Shown in pieces: positions 10,401 through 58,710 of a stretch of 64,000 bases of DNA. Position 1 is the first letter of the stretch, and each line of letters opens with the position of its first letter. The DNA lies in NCBI GenBank assembly GCA_021229015.1, contig CM037794.1, positions 40,629,126 through 40,693,125 of the forward strand. Reading direction: 5' to 3'. The position numbers and the translations under genes were made by a program. Origin of the DNA: Solen grandis (taxonomy: Eukaryota > Mollusca > Bivalvia > Adapedonta > Solenidae). Under the pieces are notes generated by a model that was not told the DNA's origin, did not search any database, and worked only from the letters and a program-made list of their open reading frames with translations.

Positions 10401-13400
10401 TTACTTCTTTCTAAAATGTTTAATTATTATTGAACATAACACACTAAGTTTTTTAAGCGTTTGACTATTTTCAGACTGAAATAATTCTACGAGTTTCATC
10501 ATATTTGGGCGCTTACAAACAGTTGCATCCAAATACTTTTTACGATGAGTTTCAAAAATAGGACATGCAAGTAAATAATGATACTCATCTCCTATGTCTT
10601 GACAGAGTGTACATTTACGTTCATTTCTCGGTATGTTCTGCCAGCGTCCAATTTCAATTGGTAAGTTATGATTTCTGGTTATAAAAGCAACAATGTTTTT
10701 TGTTTGATAAACTGAGAGTTTGTTAATATAAGGGCTTTGACCAAAAGATGTTTTAATATATTTATATAAATTTCCATCTGTTTTTAGGTTTAACTCAGAA
10801 TACCATTGTTGTATAAATAGATCTCTAAGTTTTTGGCCAGTAGATTTGATAAGCCACTTGCTATTAATGAAGTTTTGACTGTACCAAATACCAGAATACC
10901 CTATAGAACAAAGATATTCTTTAACATTTTCAATCCACTCTGATTTTATTTTATTTTGAATATACATCTGATGGATTAATAAGTACACTTTGGCAGATAA
11001 TTTTGTTGTGTCAGTATTTCTTAAATTTTCGATTAATCGTGACCAATATGCTATTACTCTATTTTTGATGCTGACAATTAATGGTGTACATCCAGTTTCA
11101 CCATAAACCATATATGATGGTGTTGACTTTTTCAACTTAAATATATATTTATAATATTTCAGTTGTATTTTTTCTAGCATATCTACATTCCCATAACCCC
11201 AAACTTCGCTCCCATACAAAAGTATAGGTTTAACTGTTTTCTCAAAGAGATCTATCTGTATGTCAATAGGAAGATTTTGAGACTTTATTTTTTTAAGTAA
11301 AGAAAACATTGCCTTATTTGCTTGTTCAGCTATATGAATTTTAGTTTTATGAAATGATCCTGTCTTACTAAAGTATAGACCTAGGTATTTGTATTCATCT
11401 ACTTGTTCTATTAAAGTTTCTCCTATCTTAAACATATGAACCTGTCTTGGCTTTCTCCGACTAAAACACATAACTTTTGTTTTATTGACATTAATTTTTA
11501 ACTTCCATGTATCACAGTAACTTTTAAAATTATCTAGTGCTTTTTGTAGATCTAATTCGTTATTACTAAAAATGATGGTGTCATCTGCATAAAGAAGAAT
11601 GAACATCTTCAAGTATAAATGTGCTTCTTCTATACTAGCTGATATCCCACTAACATTGGTATTTCTTAAGTATTTTTCAAGGTCATTTAGGAATATTGCA
11701 AATAAAAATGGGGAGAGGTTTTCTCCTTGTCTTACTCCAACTGAGCATTTAAAGAAAGAAGTTTCCCCCTCAGAGGTTATAACCTTTGACTTTATATTAT
11801 TATATAAACTTTGTATAATTCTTAAACATTTTCCATTTATTTTTTCTGTTTTTAATTTTTCCCAAAGCCCTACTCTCCATACTGAGTCAAAAGCTTGCTT
11901 GAAATCTATATAACAACAAAATAATTTTTTCCTGTCAGAATAAACAATGTCAATCAAGTTTTTTAGAATAAATATATTGTCAATTGTTGAGAACTTTTTT
12001 CTAAAACCAGCTTGAGTTTCATGAATAAGGTCTGATTTTTCAGCATACTTAATTAATCGTTCATTGATAATACTGGTAAATAATTTTCCTAAACAGCTCA
12101 AAAGAGATATGGGTCTATAGTTTTCAGGTAATTGAGGATTTCCTTTATTTTTGTATATCGGTTTAATTATTCCTACCGTCCAACTTTCAGGTACAATTCC
12201 CGTATCAAATATTATATTGAATAATTTAATATATATTTCCATCATATAATTTACTGAATATTTTATATGTTCGTTTATGATATTATCAATGCCAGGTGCT
12301 TTATTGTTTTTAAGACTTTTGACTGATTGCATGATTTCTTCTCTTGTTATTGGCCCGTTTATGTCGTCGTTATAATCATATTCAGGTTCGTCTGTATAGC
12401 TGCTTTCAGATTCATCTGGGTTTTCGTTCATTTTTTTAAAGTAATCATAAAAGTCGTCCAGAGGAGCATGTTTAACAGAATTGCTTTTAGAATTGTTTAT
12501 ACTATTCCAATAATGTTTGGGATCAGTTGTTTTTAATCTCCGTATTTTTTCTACTTTAAGTTCATTATAGTGAACTCGAGATTTTTTCATAGTGTTTTTT
12601 ATAATCTTTACTTACTATTTTTAAAAGATTTTTAAAATGATGTGTTTTATATTTGTTATACGCCTTTCTCGTTCTATGATATATGTCTCTAATTTTTTTA
12701 CATGAAAGATCAAACCATGGGTGCTTATTGTTGGCACCGTTTTTTTCATTCTTATATTTGCAATTATTGTTAATTATACCGAATGAATGCTCTGATGTAT
12801 TTACAAAATCCAATATCAGATACTATTTCATCTAAATCTTGTTGTGTAATAGTATAACCATCACTAATCTTGTTAAGTTTCAACTCAATTTCTGAGACCA
12901 TTTCTGTGTCTATATTGTTATGGAATAAGTTTGATTTTTTACTATCCCATAATCTTATTTTATTCTTATTATTTGTAGTTATCAATTTCTTTTTATTATA
13001 ACTATTACTTTTAAATTTAGTTTTCAGACTAACATATAATGGGCAGTGGACGTCTGAGAAAAGGTTACAAAATTCGTCTACTTTAAAATCGATCACATTT
13101 TCGAAACAAAAGGAAGATGAAATAACATAGTCAACAACACTTGAGTTTTTACACGTTAAAGCGGGCTTAACATAATCCCCAGCAATCCTACCATTCCATA
13201 TAAACATATTATTGTTTTTACACAACTCAATTAGATTGCATCCATACTGATTTACAGTCGTATCTATGCAATTTCTATTCGTGGTATATTATATTTTTCA
13301 AAATTCTCCAAAATTATACCCTCCTCATGAACAACGTTTTGCAACTCAAATAATTCGTTTAAAATATTATCAGTAGAAATATAATCAGACTTATTTCCGA

Positions 13401-13935
13401 TTCTAGCGTTAAAGTCACCCAAAAGTATACAATGACTACTATTTCCGAAATATCTAAACAGTTCATTTTGAAGTTCAAAAAAAGGATCAGTATGCGCAAA
13501 TCTTGAACCAGTTGGTGGGACGTAGACGATCCCACATTTTAAATCTTCATCACAGGCACTGCCTGTTGTTCCATAAATTCGTTTGGAGAGTGTAAAAAAT
13601 TTTACTAGTTCAGTTTGAGAGTTATTATCAATTGTTACATATTCGATCAAATCATTTCTAAATAATAGTGCTATACCACCTGAACGGTAGTTTGTAATTT
13701 TCTTCCTATTAAAAGTATAAACAGTATACCCTGGTACATGTATAAGATCGGTATCATCTGTTTTAATTTCCTGTAAACATATAATATCAAATTTGTGTAA
13801 ATACTCAATAAAATCTGGGCAGTTTAGTTTTGATAGAATTCCACAGACATTCAATGACAATATTTTCAGGTCACAATGTACAGTGTCTTTGTTTGTCCCG
13901 TGCTGTTCGTTATAATAGCCGTCTCCCTGACACCG
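10401..13935 (-). pseudogene. LINE ORF2: endonuclease + reverse transcriptase + C-terminal Cys/His motif, frameshifted
   Basis: The endonuclease block shows SLNVCGI, CLQEIKTDD (catalytic Glu), YVPPTGSRF, LLGDFNARIG, VDYVISS and SDVHCPL, the ordered motifs of LINE endonucleases. The RT block shows KPIYKNKGN, NYRPISLLS, QAGFRKKFSTIDN, YIDFKQAFD, GVRQGENLSPFLF and LLYADDTIIFS (catalytic YADD near plus 11580), then a thumb region. CTLCQDIGDEYHYLLAC gives CX2CX7HX4C near the end. The frame is broken near 13280 (PR joins RNCIDTTVNQYG), near 12810 and in an A run near 12588. Conceptually it is about 1150 residues, normal for the type. There is no ATG between the ORF1 stop and the endonuclease, and the two are in the same frame. 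Confidence 0.92.
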
Positions 13936-15635
13936 CTAATCACGTGCATCACAATTTAACGGTGTAATTTCTTCATTTTCACGTGCCGTATGTGATCCCT
14001 GGCTCCGATCAATGTCACTGGGCAAGGTAATAACTGGGGATGCCTGGATATGCATGCTATATTCGGGAGTTAATGTTTTTACAGCGTTCGTAGTATGATT
14101 TTCTAATAATGATGGGGATTTTTGTATCTGCGTGAGGTCATCTTCGCTGTCACTGTCACTTGTGACAATGTATGGTTTCTTAGATATAGTATTTTCAAGA
14201 GGTGAGGATGCCTTTGTTTTGCCTGTGTACTTGGTATTATTGCGAGGTGTGTCTTCCTCTAGAACTGAGAACATATTTCTTGTTTGAATTGCGTCTTCCG
14301 GTTTTTTTCCGACGGACCGCGTAAAAGTCCTTGATGTATGTGTATTTCTCGTGTATGAATTTTGTCTCGTTTGTTGTCTTCGTTCGATTCCTCTTTCAGT
14401 GCTGAGTTTTATGTTCTCTGTGTGTTTACTTCTACAAGTCTGACCCTGCGTATTTGTGGTATTGTATAGCTCTCCATTAATGTATAATCTGTCTCTTACT
14501 AATCTCACTCGGTTTGATGGGTCTTTTCGTGCCTCTCTTGCTATTTCATACAGAGCCCTTCTTTTACATTCTATTTCTGGTGGAAACTGCTCAGATATTC
14601 CGAAACTACTATGAGACAATGTTTTAAAGGCATTTATTCTGATGTTTTCTCTATCTTTAAAAAATGTTTTTTTTTTTTTTTTTTTTTCCCATTTCTTTTT
14701 TAAAGTTTTAATGATGTTTTGTAATGGTCTTATTTTTTCATTTTTCAATTTTGCTTCAGGGATCCCAAAAAACAAGAGGTTTTCCCGCATACTTCGCCAT
14801 CTTACGTCAGTCACCTTATCTTCAGTATCTCTTAATTGTTTGTCCATGTTATATTGTTGATTTTCAAGCATATTCAAGCGTTTTTAAGTCTTTTCCTGTT
14901 TATTTCCTTGTTGTTTATTGCTACGTCATCATACATGTCACTATATTGCTGGATAGTGTCATCATATTCAGTGACTTTTTCTTGTAAGTCATTCATTTCT
15001 AATCGCATTGTTGTGAAATGTTTGCTTGTATTACTTAATTCTTGTTTAAATTGAGCATTTGATATCTGGTTTTCCATTTTTAATATTTTTTCATTTTGTT
15101 GTGATATATGGTTTTCTACAATTTGCCAACATTTTGTGTGACCGTCAAGTAAAGACTGAATGCAGCTCATTTGTTGACAAAGATTAGCTGCCCAAGGCGG
15201 TATGGAACCTGAGGAACCTGAGGACTCTTGCATGGGTGCAGGCGCACTGGCTGGTATAGCATTGTATTGATGTGTCAACGGTCCACCTACAATACCCACA
15301 GGCTGATTCGTCTGGTTTACATGGCTGGTGTGTATATATGAATGTCCTTGATCCTGACCCTGTCTTGTAAAATTTATATCATGGGTAGTTTGCATATTTG
15401 GGAAACATTGGTTTTGTTGATAATCTGTATTTGATTGAGTATATACATTCGCATTTGGCCCATATAATATATCTCTTGTTTGACTCATCAGGTCTGTGGT
15501 TGGTAATATCGTTGTTGGCGTATTTAAATTTTGTTGTTGTTTTTGTTTCGTTCCGTCAGCGTTATGACTCATCGCTGTTGTTGAGTTTGTTTGTCCTTTG
15601 TTTTTCTTACTCTTGTTTTTATTTTTTTCGCTCAT
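13936..15635 (-). pseudogene. LINE ORF1: coiled coil plus L1-type RRM region, frameshifted and internally damaged
   Basis: ATG lies at 15633-15635. The N-terminal 150 residues are Gln/Asn/Thr-rich. A coiled coil follows (KMENQISNAQFKQELSN region) and the frame ends TGA at 14874-14876. The next frame continues the coil (MLENQQYNMDKQLRDTED) and the conserved RENLLFFGIPE. A long T run on the plus strand (about 14667-14688) replaces a stretch expected to hold the VHRLG/RPI motifs of this family. The frame then rejoins at INAFKTLSHSSFGISEQFPP and VRLVRDRLYINGELY. The frame ends at TAG 13936-13938 after a Ser/Thr-rich tail. The product normally binds LINE RNA. Confidence 0.85.
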
Positions 15636-15660
15636 TTTTCATTACTTTGTTCTTATAGTC

Positions 15661-21602: not shown

Positions 21603-22727
21603 GTGCATTTAATCATTTAAACTGTACATGTAAGTAGTGTGACATCAACAAAATAAATAAAGAACCAGTGTCAACGCTGTCCAATATCGCCATGCAAATT
21701 CCTGGATACGGAATTTTAACTTTCACATGGCAACAAGCAGTTTTTACAGTATCGTACAAGACTGACACAGCGCCGGAAATGTAGTTTCTATCTAAAAGAT
21801 TACAAGAAACCAAATAATAATCAATAAACATTATATTCTTTATTGTTTGCCTTTTTAATAGAGATTTGAGAAAATAACTAAGGAGCAGCAGCCCCAGAAT
21901 ATATTTCCGAAATTCGGAGGATGGATCTGAAACAGTACTGGTTAAGCACGGATTTCTCCCGCCTGAAAGTATGGAGCATATAGCGATGAAAGAATGGTTC
22001 TGAGATCACAAGCTCAGACCGTTCGACGTTAAGACGCTTCAGCCACCAACTTAGGGTGTAAATCGATAATTGGCCTTTTAAATATTTTCTTAATTCGATA
22101 TCAGACTTGGCTCGAAATTCGCCGCCAGCTTGATATTCGCATTTCTTATATGGCGAATAACGATGTCAGAGGTGATCCGATATTCTTCGAACCTTGGTGA
22201 ATTTCGATCTCAGGCCTTGCTCAAAATTCACCTGTAACTCGATATCGTATTTTGAATAACAAAGTAATTTCTCACACTTCTGATATATTTGTGACCAAGT
22301 AACATCATACTGCCCTAAGCTGGATCGAACTTGCGGATCTTGATATAAGCAAGTTGGACACTCTACAACGTCGCCACAAAAGCTAGAGTACAAGTGTCAT
22401 TTTATACATCTGCTCCAAACATTGAACAGACGTGTTTTAATAATCAAAAAATAGATCGACATAATGACAACTATAAGAGATAGTATAACTTTAGAACAAT
22501 GTAAAACGCTTAAAGGCGCAATAAGAAATTAATAATGTACATGTATGATGTAAGCTTTAAATCTAATATCAATCTATTACTGAAACACATAGACAAGATG
22601 ACGTCATTATTTGAACGTTGTGTATTTTTAATGTGACGTTGCAGATTTTAAGTAATGTTACCATGACGTTCACATTCAGTAACTAGCAACACTACATAGA
22701 ATTATATACCTACGATCGTAAATATAA
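21603..22727. other. No gene seen; degraded tRNA-like segment near 22285-22375 (minus)
   Basis: On the minus strand, TGGCGACGTTGTAGAGTGTC followed by CGCAAGTTCGATCCAGC resembles a decayed tRNA-derived SINE head. The rest shows no exon. The 3' part would be the promoter/5' UTR of the gene starting at 22728, but I see no clear core promoter. Confidence 0.4.
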
Positions 22728-53947: not shown

Positions 53948-54839
53948 GTATTTTCATAGTTTTGATTTTACTAAATGAGGTGATTACTGTAGCATGACAT
54001 TGGAATATTTTGGGATATCTGAATACTTAACTAATGTCACATTCCAAACTGAAGAAAGGACAAGTCCAATTAAAATATTTATCATGGTAAGGGTAACACT
54101 TGGCATATATACAAATTTTCCATAGGTTCACATGATTTAAATGATAACCTCATAGAGTGTAAGAAAATACTTAAAATGACAATAAATTAATGTTGATGGT
54201 CCAGTTCCAAGTAATTCCATTCTAAATATGAACAATTTGGTGAATAGAGGAGGCTATACCTACAGTAAAGATTTTCACAGTTTTAGGACTAATAAGAATA
54301 TTTTGAATTTTCAGAAGGTTATTTGATGATGATTTTGATTGCTCTCTATGTGATCTATATATTGAAACATAAAATACAGCTAAGAAGGATTTGTTAGAGG
54401 ATTGGACTTAAAGTATATAATTTAGTAGTCGGTCTGTTCTTGAAATTTTGAGCCAAATAAACTCTTTTTGAAGAGGTATAGAGTCTTTCTCTATGATCAA
54501 GCTGGCAGCTTTAAGTTTTCCTACAGTTATTCCATTAAGTATATCAATAATCGGTGTATGGTAGTTTTTAACCATTTTACTTCATGAATATTCATGTACA
54601 AATTAATGACGGGATAGATACTGATTTGCAGATGATTGAAAATTGTAAAATTATGAAACAATGGATTTTTCTTGGTGGTGCAGACATTTTAGAATCTGAG
54701 CTACAGTATTATGTGAGCAAATGAAGGTAACCTTGATCAGACAGCTCCTAGATGGAGCTGTCTGATCTGGATTTGCTCTGTTTGCAAAAGCATCAAAACA
54801 CGTTTATGTGAGGTATAAAGTTGAATAAATATAAACTTA

Positions 54840-55900: not shown

Positions 55901-56664
55901 TTAAATAAGAAACTATACGCTTATGTGGGGGCTATATAAGAATCATGCTTGCCTTGTATTACATACACATGACATGAAGGCAAGGTGTGTGTAAGGGGGT
56001 GGGGGGGGGGTATCAATTACAGCATTTTTATTGTATTCTTTTAAAGCAGCATTTTTATTGTATTCTTTTAAAGTTCTAGTGACTTAATTTAAAACAGTGC
56101 ACATCACAGTAATTATAAATAGACCTGCTTTCTGTTAACAGCTAATGAGGAAAAGAATTTTGTGAATTGTTTTTAATATGTAAACTTCGAAGGAAAATTT
56201 TAGACCCTCATGCTTTTATCTGGAGGTAATACGGTAAATAGAAATTGTATCTGGGGTGAAGATCATAATTATTGATAGATTCTGTCATAAGCTTGATAGC
56301 TTTAGGAAATTGATGGCTAGGGTAAATATTGCACAGCAAGGTGTAATTAATTTTTACACCCTAGCTTCACAAAAGTCCCATTTCATTCCATCGCATCCAG
56401 TTTTAATAAAAGTTCACTGTCCCATGTGGTATAAGTCACATCCTGTGATGGCTCTAGTTAATGTAAAAAACAATGGAAAAAAAATCAGATACTGTTAAAT
56501 TCAGTGAAGGCATATGAAGAATGCATGTTGTTGAATGTCTTTTATTATTAATTTACTCATATCTGTCTCGATGACGCATAATATGCTGTCATTCTCTCTT
56601 TTCTGGCTGAAACCATTGCAAAAGTTTATTCACTGACAGCTGAATTTGCAATGCAGCCAACATA

Positions 56665-56771
56665 TTAACCCTTAACTTCATATAGACTCATTTTGACACA
56701 TAGGCGAACAGAGCAGACCAAGATCAGACAGCTCCTATAGCTGTCTGATCAGGGTCTCCTCTGTTTGCTCA
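56665..56771. mobile_element. TTAA MITE-like remnant interrupted by the miniature LTR element
   Basis: TTAACCCTTAACTTCATATA and GACTCATTTTGACACATAGG resemble the piggyBac-like family end. The core differs: GATCAGACAGCTCCTATAGC then TGTCTGATC, a perfect hairpin also seen near 54734-54765. The sequence is broken at CTGTTTGCTCA by the retroelement at 56772. Confidence 0.55.
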
Positions 56772-56886
56772 TGTAGCCGGGTACAGGTATTTGGTGAAAA
56801 AATCATGGCTCGACCGGGACTCGAACCCAGGGCCTCAGGACTACCGTTCCTGCGCTCTACCACTGAGCTATCGAGACCCGGCTACA
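56772..56886 (-). repeat. 3' LTR (115 bp) of the miniature element
   Basis: It begins TGTAGCCGGG directly joined to TCTCGATAGC, so about 43 bp present in the 5' LTR is deleted. It ends ATACCTGTACCCGGCTACA. It carries the better-preserved tRNA-like sequence. Confidence 0.8.
56806..56877 (-). ncRNA. tRNA-like cloverleaf (Thr-GGT-like) inside the 3' LTR
   Basis: 72 nt fold as a tRNA: acceptor GTCTCGA/TCGAGCC (one mismatch) with discriminator A; D stem GCTC/GAGC around AGTGGTA; anticodon stem CAGGA/TCCTG; loop ACGGTAG; variable AGGCC; T stem CTGGG/CCCGG around TTCGAGT. The loop would place GGT (Thr) as anticodon, but the usual U before the anticodon is C, so it is unlikely to be an ordinary tRNA. 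Pol III boxes TAGCTCAGTGG (A) and GGTTCGAGTCC (B, canonical) are intact, and TTTTTT follows three to four bases after the 3' end (56802-56797). Confidence 0.7.
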
Positions 56887-56898
56887 TATTCCCCCTCC
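56887..56898 (-). promoter_or_regulatory. Polypurine tract of the miniature element
   Basis: The minus strand reads GGAGGGGGAATA immediately before the TGTAGCC of the 3' LTR, the position expected for plus-strand priming. Confidence 0.7.
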
Positions 56899-56994
56899 AA
56901 ATTTAGAATTTGTCCCGAATTCTTTGAGACAAAGAACATTGTGAAAAGTTCTTGAGGTGCCGAAGCAGTAGCCATATCAAACAGTAGGTTATTT

Positions 56995-57007
56995 ACGTTG
57001 GGCGCCA
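56995..57007 (-). promoter_or_regulatory. Primer-binding site complementary to tRNA-Lys 3' end
   Basis: The minus strand reads TGGCGCCCAACGT two bases after the 5' LTR. This is complementary to the 3' end of animal tRNA-Lys(CUU) (ACGTTGGGCG plus CCA), a primer used by several LTR elements. Confidence 0.75.
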
Positions 57008-57009
57008 AA

Positions 57010-57157
57010 TGTAACAGGTGGTGAAAAAATCATGGCTCGACCAGGACTCAAACCCAGGGCCTTAGGACTACCGTTCCTGCGCTCTACCACAGAGCTATCG
57101 AGACACTCATGTCTTATTGCCTATTGATTTATCACCAAAGACCTGTACCCGGCTACA
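57010..57157 (-). repeat. 5' LTR (148 bp) of the miniature element
   Basis: TG...CA ends. It contains a 43-bp stretch missing from the other LTR (GTCTTTGGTGATAAATCAAT region), then a tRNA-like part (57104-57033) and a T6 run (57029-57024). The tRNA part carries four substitutions compared with the 3' LTR, and its B box is GGTTTGAGTCC. Confidence 0.8.
57033..57104 (-). ncRNA. tRNA-like cloverleaf inside the 5' LTR
   Basis: Same fold as the copy at 56806-56877 with four changes (A box TAGCTCTGTGG, CCTAAGG, GGTTTGA, GTCCTGG). Boxes are weaker than in the other copy. A T6 run follows at 57029-57024. Confidence 0.65.
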
Positions 57158-57161
57158 CTCA

Positions 57162-58710
57162 TACAATATTATAGTTCAGTTTCTACATAGTCATCTGTGG
57201 CAAAGAAAAATCCATTATTTCATAAACCATTTTAAATGCAGTAAATCAATATTCATCAAATCATTTTTTTTTTTTCATGAATATGCATGAGGTAAAGGTG
57301 AAGAAATTTTCCACTCAAGTGATCTTTAACTGTTTGACACTTCTTCATAATAATATGACTGGATGTGGTATGTTATTTAGTTTGATTTTGTAGTGTGGCA
57401 GCACTATATCTGATATATAAGGGGACAATTTTAAATATTGTGGAGTGTTCTTAAACCTCTGCAAACAATTTCTAATGAATCTGAGATGAAATTGGACTCT
57501 TAGCAGATAGTTAAATGAATTAATTGTACCATATAAAAGAAACTGAAATAAATTTTCCATTTCAATAAACCAAACCATAGTCCATTGAAATGTGAACGAT
57601 TTGATAGCGTTCCATTGTTAAAAATCTGCTTACATCTGAAGCACTTTCAACTGCTCTTTATGAAATATTAATTATGTTACTTATCTATGCAAGTATTATT
57701 AATGTTTAGATATTTCAGACAGGTATTAAATGACAGATTGCCAGTTACATCTTGGTTTCAAGAAATAATTAATCAGTTTCTTGGGGGATTAAGTATATTT
57801 GCCTGAGTATATCCCAAAATTTCTGGCTGATCTACTTGTGTATTTAGGGATCCTTTGATCAGTGAAACCCAATCCTTCTGTGTTTACTTTCTTGCGTAAT
57901 TAATTTCCAATTTCATGTCTGTCTTTGTTTGGAAATGTCAAAGAATCCAAATGGAGATAACTTCATACCTACTCAAATAACAGAAATTCTGAGCAAGTTA
58001 GATATTCAGCAATAAATGGTATATTTGAGAGAGATTAATTTGATACTTCTGAGTCTATTTTAAATAGCTTATCTGATAATGGATCAATTGTTTATTCATT
58101 TTTTCCTTATTTATCAAATTAATATCAAGTTAGATACTAACTCAAATTCATTCACTGTTTTTTCTAAAGGTAAATCATGAAAATATAACAAAGGATTTGT
58201 ATAGACTCATATAAGAATAAATATCCACTAAAACTCTCAACATTTCACAATTAGTATGATCTATGTCGGACAGAAAACATTCAGAAATTATTTGCAAAGT
58301 TAGTGTGCAGGGGGCTATGTATAGGGATCACAAGAATTGTCCCTTTCAATTGTCCTGTTTAACAAAATGCATACTGAAGGTTCATCACATCTATCTCTCT
58401 TAATTTTCTTCCCATATGACTGAAGAATCTAAGGTTTATGTTCAATTTCTTAATGAAGAATTCCCATTTTCATATTGGCTAGTTTTCTTATTTAAGTCTG
58501 TATAGAAACTTTGGAATTGTTTGTAACTGACATTTGAATTTAGTTGCTGCTGAAAATTAAACCATGTAAAATCAAGTGACCTGAATTGTTTAATTAAGCT
58601 GATAATTAATACTCTGGTGAGCGTTCTAGGACCATGATGACCTTCTTGTTAATAGAAGTGTAGTAGGGCATCAGTCACCTTCAGTGAAGCTTGAGTTGTT
58701 GTTCAGGATA
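57162..58710. other. No gene seen
   Basis: AT-rich DNA. A 40-bp end remnant of the CCCTCTTG family lies at 58612-58651 (CTCTGGTGAGCGTTCTAGGA then CCATGATGACCTTCTTG). A T run lies at 57267-57276. Confidence 0.4.

Follow-up and report, generated by a model that had tools for sequence, protein, structure and literature searches.

A damaged member of a young Helenus-type TRIM family in Solen grandis and a proposed transfer mechanism for its composite inserts

Anatomy of the window copy and its insertion site

The window analyzed here, a stretch of 64,000 nucleotides from the bivalve Solen grandis, carries a 386-bp element at 56772..57157 that starts with TG, ends with CA, and is flanked by two copies of CTCA (56768..56771 and 57158..57161, no strand assigned). 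Every feature of the element sits on the minus strand, which the original prediction had not mentioned, and reading from 57157 to 56772 gives the order LTR, primer-binding site (PBS), internal region, polypurine tract (PPT), LTR. The 5′ LTR (57010..57157) has the normal structure and length of 148 bp and is 96.6% identical to a reference copy. TT separates it from the PBS TGGCGCCCAACGT (56995..57007), which complements the 3′-terminal 13 nt of tRNA-Lys. The internal region, INT1 (56887..57009, 123 bp, 99.2% identity to the reference copy), ends in the PPT TTTGGAGGGGGAATA (56887..56901), immediately before the 3′ LTR (56772..56886). The tRNA-Lys-type PBS after the 5′ LTR, the PPT before the 3′ LTR, and a T6 run after each tRNA-like part had all been predicted, and all are seen.

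Both LTRs contain a tRNA-like unit. In the 5′ LTR it spans 57033..57104 and is followed by T6 at 57029-57024; in the 3′ LTR it spans 56806..56877, with Pol III-type boxes at approximately 56870-56860 (A box) and 56827-56817 (B box) and T6 at 56802-56797. Rfam scores the two units as tRNA at 40.9 and 55.2 bits, respectively, above the gathering score of 29. ARAGORN calls a tRNA in the 3′ LTR copy only (tRNA-Thr, anticodon GGT), and the B box of the 5′ copy is mutated to GGTTTGA from GGTTCGA. Minimum-energy folding of the tRNA-like RNA does not produce a cloverleaf, and the stability obtained is no better than that of shuffled sequences (z = −0.55); we base the cloverleaf on the covariance-model match and not on this fold.

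The element lies in a host repeat with palindromic arms (56681..56771, plus strand), which was its insertion target. A related repeat at approximately 54.62-54.82 kb (54620-54815, minus strand), also with palindromic arms, aligns across the joined flanks with a single CTCA and represents the empty site. The boundaries and the CTCA duplication originally proposed for the element are therefore correct, and the proposed length and TG..CA ends are likewise seen in the sequence. A second copy of the target repeat, at the fetched locus L168, aligns well only up to the insertion point. As a microRNA candidate, the palindrome at 56698-56774 received weak Rfam scores, far below gathering. Elsewhere in the window, adjacent long open frames at 10401-15638 on the minus strand appear LINE-like by eye (endonuclease-like and reverse-transcriptase-like).

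The two LTRs of the window copy are not equivalent. The 3′ LTR is rearranged and measures 115 bp: the 44 bp after TGTAGCCGGGT are missing, and an inverted U3 start takes the place of its U5 end, so that the element has 30-bp terminal inverted repeats (56772..56801 on the plus strand, 93% complementary to 57128-57157). This inverted-LTR junction was found at two places among the fetched loci, the other being L048, where it lies between two PPTs. We consider that the 3′ LTR probably carries an aberrant inverted end left by a failed or intermolecular plus-strand transfer, and we favor a change before insertion because CTCA adjoins the aberrant end. The change could instead have arisen after insertion, through gene conversion or an inversion-deletion at a hairpin-prone LTR end. 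The window copy is indeed mutated elsewhere, as the divergence of its 5′ LTR shows, and the 44-bp deletion is an additional change of this kind; against this stand the direct contact between CTCA and the aberrant end, the fit of the empty site, and the identical junction in L048. We regard a later origin as a serious contender that is nonetheless on the unlikely side.

A young family of tRNA-bearing elements

The host assembly (1.32 Gb in 811 contigs) was searched with patterns drawn from the element. Allowing up to 3 mismatches, the tRNA-plus-T6 pattern matched 359 times and the internal-region pattern 192 times, with no matches for either reversed control. Typical sister copies consist of 148 + 123 + 148 bp, a total of 419 bp with no coding capacity. 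A shared-flank filter removed 6 of 68 LTR1-INT1-LTR1 elements: two were segmental duplicates (the second copies in L038 and L045), three had the PPT of a tandem unit as their left flank (L030, L131, and the second unit of L041), and one (L128) shared its right flank with L055. Among the 62 unique copies that remained, 40 have an exact 4-bp target duplication, compared with 74 of 3782 mismatched flank pairs (2.0%). The duplications vary in sequence and did not extend to 5 bp in the 30 loci checked. Some copies scored as having none belong to composite inserts (e.g. L021, L042, L057, and L077). LTR pairs are identical in 22 of the 62 copies, a share biased upward because the first 40 loci were the best-scoring matches, and this indicates recent activity. 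Several locus pairs share flanks (L054/L059, L028/L045, the two L038 copies, and L152/L171) and represent segmental duplications or unmerged haplotypes.

Among 23 loci fetched for a lone LTR match (L078-L100), the LTR is followed by a PBS in 14 and preceded by a PPT in 3; the other 6 are bare, three of them with a 4-bp duplication (L094, L095, and L098). True solo LTRs therefore exist, and many apparent ones are not solo. The paired LTRs, PBS, PPT, varied 4-bp duplications, and three bare solo LTRs bear out the proposal that the element is a non-autonomous LTR retrotransposon (TRIM).

At least four LTR/internal pairs coexist in the genome: LTR1/INT1 (148 and 123 bp), LTR2/INT2 (148 and 112 bp), LTR3/INT3 (142 and 121 bp), and LTR6/INT6 (152 and 138 bp). 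All four internal regions share TTTGGCGCCCAACGT and a block ending in a purine tract; the block before the PPT is GGGACGAATTCT, and the PPT of the 148 + 123 + 148 bp copies is GGAGGGGGAATA. The PBS extends to the full 18 nt, TGGCGCCCAACGTGGGRC, in INT2, INT3, and INT6, and INT1 holds 13 nt only. Apparent further LTR types lie inverted behind LTR1 in L079, L092, and L093. The family 6 copies in L154, L155, L156, and L158 have the same flanks; a larger repeat therefore carries them along, and they were left out of the insertion counts.

A T4-T6 run near the LTR end is present in all four families, and three of the four (LTR1, LTR3, and LTR6) combine a canonical B box with a Thr-type tRNA call by ARAGORN (anticodons GGT, TGT, and AGT, respectively). 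LTR2, which contains TATAAA, lacks both a canonical B box and a tRNA call. A remnant at 22291-22386 of the window (minus strand) is approximately 80% identical to the tRNA-containing half of LTR2, which belongs to this other Helenus-like family.

These traits match those of Helenus, TRIMs with tRNA-like LTRs, a PBS, and a PPT that occur in six animal phyla (Kojima 2024, Biology 13:119, PMC10886601). The 419-bp sister copies fall below the approximate 1-kb limit, with two LTRs and no coding capacity; the tRNA-derived part of LTR1, LTR3, and LTR6 has the A box (TRGCY..YGG) and B box (GGTTC); a PBS follows the 5′ LTR and a PPT precedes the 3′ LTR; and the duplications are 4 bp long in the proportion of copies given above. 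We estimate a probability of roughly 80% that the window element belongs, as a degraded member, to a young TRIM family of the Helenus type, a reading that we present together with the mechanism proposed below. The S. grandis family is one added Helenus member, assigned by described traits rather than by published consensus sequences.

The tRNA-like part suggests how the template RNA might be made. Through its A and B boxes, Pol III would begin transcription in the 5′ LTR and finish at the T-run of the 3′ LTR. A full-length RNA would require read-through of the T6 in the 5′ LTR, where Pol III should terminate short of the internal region. Alternatively, Helenus may depend on RNA polymerase II, as ordinary LTR elements do, with the tRNA-like part a passenger or serving another role. 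That same early T6, the fold that is not a cloverleaf, and an LTR2 with TATAAA in place of a canonical B box all speak for Pol II, whose involvement we still judge unlikely in view of two observations: A and B boxes and the T-run are kept in LTR1, LTR3, and LTR6, as the boxes are in Helenus generally (PMC10886601), and LTR1 contains only AATAAG of the four hexamers looked for. Pol III transcription of Helenus is unproven in Kojima (2024) as well.

Composite inserts and tRNA-Lys footprints

Beyond the simple copies, the family occurs in composite inserts of several kinds: mixed-family arrays, inverted fusions, and one chimera of Helenus with Ty3/Gypsy. We placed the outer ends of 28 composite, inverted, or tandem inserts, the window copy among them, and found a single exact 4-bp duplication in 19, compared with 10 of 756 mismatched pairs. 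The match for L134 depends on an end set 2 bases further to take in TT. The nine without an exact duplication are L021, L033, L042, L074, L124, L138, L139, L141, and L147; L074 counts as a miss here, although allowing for the loss of 5 bases would make ATTG a match, and so does L138, whose insert seems to continue, as a PBS follows.

Two arrays have the order LTR1-INT3-LTR3-INT1-LTR1 (L101 with CATG and L142 with TTAA), one combines three families as LTR1-INT3-LTR3-INT2-LTR2-INT1-LTR1 (L103 with TTTA), and L148 and L149 read LTR1-INT3-LTR3. Inverted fusions are present in L046, L077, and L136 together with L073. The mixed arrays switch family at the boundary between LTR and PBS: behind an internal region usually stands its own LTR, and in front of it there may be a foreign one, with exceptions in L088 and in a truncated unit of L130. 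This is the arrangement expected from plus-strand transfer to the PBS of another molecule.

For TRIM arrays in general, the choice between recombination and template switching has been left open (Kalendar et al. 2020, PMC7215508), and one outer duplication has been used to recognize elements that integrated only once (Sabot and Schulman 2007, PMC1950507). It is conceivable that unequal recombination or nested insertion built the arrays and inverted pairs at a later stage, once the elements had inserted, and not during reverse transcription. Complex LTR insertions are usually attributed to post-insertion recombination (PMC1950507), the solo LTRs with a duplication show that LTR-LTR recombination occurs in this genome, some of the loci are segmental duplicates, and 9 of the 28 composites have no duplication. 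Recombination between separate insertions, however, should leave no matching duplications, and both the Gypsy chimera and the array of three families are among the 19 composites with one outer duplication. Recombination would also have difficulty producing the inverted dimers of L074, L075, and L150, whose halves meet in tRNA-derived sequence. We thus find an origin after insertion quite improbable.

Helenus sequence is joined to coding DNA in three groups of loci (L052/L069, L027/L070, and L057/L068/L157), and this coding DNA is, judging from domain order, presumably of the Ty3/Gypsy type. In L068 and L070, Pfam identified an integrase core together with an H2C2 zinc-binding domain, and in L069 a weak integrase match alone, below the curated cut-off. 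L157 is bounded by two Helenus LTRs, each bearing an 18-nt footprint; approximately 3.5 kb separate them, and the insert has a TGAG duplication. Two pieces of this 3.5-kb DNA were scanned with Pfam, in L068: one contains the integrase and H2C2 domains, and the other gave no Pfam match and is protease-like by eye only. The structure of L157, as read from its sequence, supports co-packaging of Helenus with a Gypsy element, in agreement with what Kojima suspected from PBS similarity (PMC10886601).

The footprints at such junctions match the 3′ end of tRNA-Lys. With 24 overlapping or large loci left out, the fetched loci contain 162 junctions in which an LTR1 end is followed by PBS sequence: 91 lead into INT1, 31 into INT3, 1 into INT2, and 39 into other sequence. 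The 39 include 24 that keep 18-20 nt of the tRNA-Lys 3′ end, 7 that keep 15-17, and 8 that keep 13. Six of the 39 are inverted junctions seen from the opposite strand, and 2 more repeat another locus (L171 that of L152, and L162 that of L137). Without them there are 31 junctions into foreign or inverted DNA, of which 22 keep at least 18 nt and 9 break short of that (7 keep 15-17 and 2 keep 13). Only junctions of this type were counted because the PBS of INT2, INT3, and INT6 contains the same 18 nt, and for that reason 18 nt alone do not prove that a tRNA was copied. Within the 22, L140 enters INT3 by a few bases, and L150 and L152 extend further into tRNA sequence.

Most footprint loci were fetched with a GTGGG pattern, which favors junctions of at least 16 nt; the search gave 166 matches with up to 2 mismatches, 44 of them exact, and many of the 2-mismatch ones belong to another family. 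In L078-L113, which were fetched solely for matching an LTR or internal region, 18-20 nt are retained at 4 of 6 such junctions. The 24 rows with at least 18 nt before deduplication end in GGGGC (15) or GGGAC (9), and the interpretation of footprints as strong-stop ends would lead us to expect host tRNA-Lys genes ending in GCCCCACGTTGGGCG and GTCCCACGTTGGGCG. Plus-strand strong-stop DNA is known to end just before m1A58, i.e. after 18 nt (review PMC13191261).

One junction goes further. In L150 (447-530), it continues into most of a tRNA-Lys(CTT) (ARAGORN; Rfam tRNA, 45.1 bits) with U at the consensus position A58, then joins an inverted LTR1, and the whole insert has a TTTC duplication. We read this single locus, from its sequence, as a strong-stop DNA that appears to have passed the modified base with misincorporation. 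L152, with its duplicate L171, may be a similar, weaker case of tRNA read-through. At L076 (406-836), approximately 400 bp of DNA lie between opposed LTR1 copies, each with an 18-nt tRNA-Lys footprint (GGGGC and GGGAC).

The LTR's own tRNA-like RNA was rejected as a primer, as both the PBS and the footprints match tRNA-Lys and not the Thr-like LTR tRNA. The earlier suggestion that the tRNA fold is used in mobilization finds no support, since tRNA-Lys is likewise what the aberrant junctions hold. Among the literature matches listed, which cover titles and the start of abstracts and represent subscription journals thinly, there is no description of integrated strong-stop DNA with tRNA footprints in TRIMs.

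The steps after transcription could then be as follows. Host tRNA-Lys would prime minus-strand DNA at the PBS, and the PPT would prime plus-strand strong-stop DNA, which would copy 18 nt of the tRNA and stop before A58. The strong-stop end should pair with its own PBS copy; it may often pair or misprime on another cDNA in the same particle, be it the helper, an inverted LTR, or a member of a different Helenus family. The product would be inserted by a Ty3/Gypsy integrase. We infer that failed or intermolecular plus-strand transfer, with a Gypsy helper, builds the arrays and chimeras. In its full form, our proposal is that serial plus-strand transfer among co-packaged Helenus and Ty3/Gypsy cDNAs yields arrays, inverted dimers, and chimeras in single integrations, and that integrated strong-stop DNA is cut at A58 and was once read through with a changed base 58. 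At the sequence level it is consistent with the element structure, the young LTR pairs, the 4-bp duplications, the single-duplication composites, and the cluster of breakpoints at 18 nt, and we consider it moderately likely.

Significance and comparison with known systems

The finding in the window is real and of a known kind; its extra value is in the composite inserts of the wider family. These inserts make it testable how TRIM tandem arrays form, by recombination or by template switching (PMC7215508), and the Gypsy chimeras make it testable which autonomous element mobilizes animal Helenus, so far approached through PBS similarity (PMC10886601). If true, serial transfer of strong-stop DNA would answer both questions. 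Genomic strong-stop footprints could also reveal priming host tRNAs without biochemistry, and could show whether base 58 blocks reverse transcription in animals beyond the usual models.

SINEs end in 3′ tails and have longer, variable target duplications. A tRNA-derived SINE with a single tRNA head, a 3′ tail, and no LTR, PBS, or PPT is refuted by the structure of the sister copies, their duplications, and the empty site. A SINE dimer whose flanks resemble LTRs by chance, which the original prediction had named as its possible undoing, would explain why a tRNA-like unit that has both boxes and a T-run is directly repeated, and can be safely dismissed given paired 148-bp LTRs, a PBS and a PPT at fixed places, 4-bp duplications in 40 of 62 copies, and an empty site with CTCA.

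Among known TRIMs, biv-TRIM also occurs in bivalves in solo and tandem forms (Satovic 2019, PMC6934838). Its repeats are 202-218 bp and its internal region 77-80 bp, with the PPT GGGGAGA in most copies and no clear PBS; the term “polymerase III” is absent from that paper, and its available text reports no tRNA-like part in the repeats. Identity with biv-TRIM was rejected on the basis of the 148-bp LTR, the 123-bp internal region, and the different PPT found here. Cassandra, a plant TRIM, similarly has a Pol III-type small-RNA gene in each LTR and forms tandem arrays (PMC7215508). Its LTRs contain 5S rRNA whereas ours contain a tRNA, and no homology is expected; a Cassandra-like 5S unit was rejected for our element, as Rfam finds tRNA and no 5S rRNA in 56000-58000 of the window.

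The composites resemble the LTR complexes of Triticeae, which also have one outer duplication and were explained by co-packaging and template switching (PMC1950507). The Triticeae complexes switch at R regions, on the minus strand, whereas the switch at the LTR-PBS boundary here points to plus-strand transfer.

The closest system is Helenus itself. The original prediction knew of no described animal TRIM that had captured a tRNA, and on this point it is outdated: such elements, bivalve ones included, were reported by Kojima (2024, PMC10886601), with 51 families in pteriomorphian bivalves, and molluscan Helenus was found there in Pteriomorphia. The available portions of that paper mention neither Gypsy chimeras nor tRNA footprints, nor arrays that combine families within one duplication; they record Helenus tandem arrays in zebrafish and suspect Gypsy as helper from PBS similarity. 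Animal Helenus has 4-bp duplications, tRNA-Lys is among its bivalve primers, and a Thr-type tRNA is predicted in seven bivalve families (PMC10886601). The S. grandis family is like Helenus in being a TRIM mostly below 1 kb, with a PBS, a PPT, and tRNA-like sequence with A and B boxes in both LTRs, and it is like bivalve Helenus in its 4-bp duplications, tRNA-Lys primer, Thr-type tRNA, and coexisting families.
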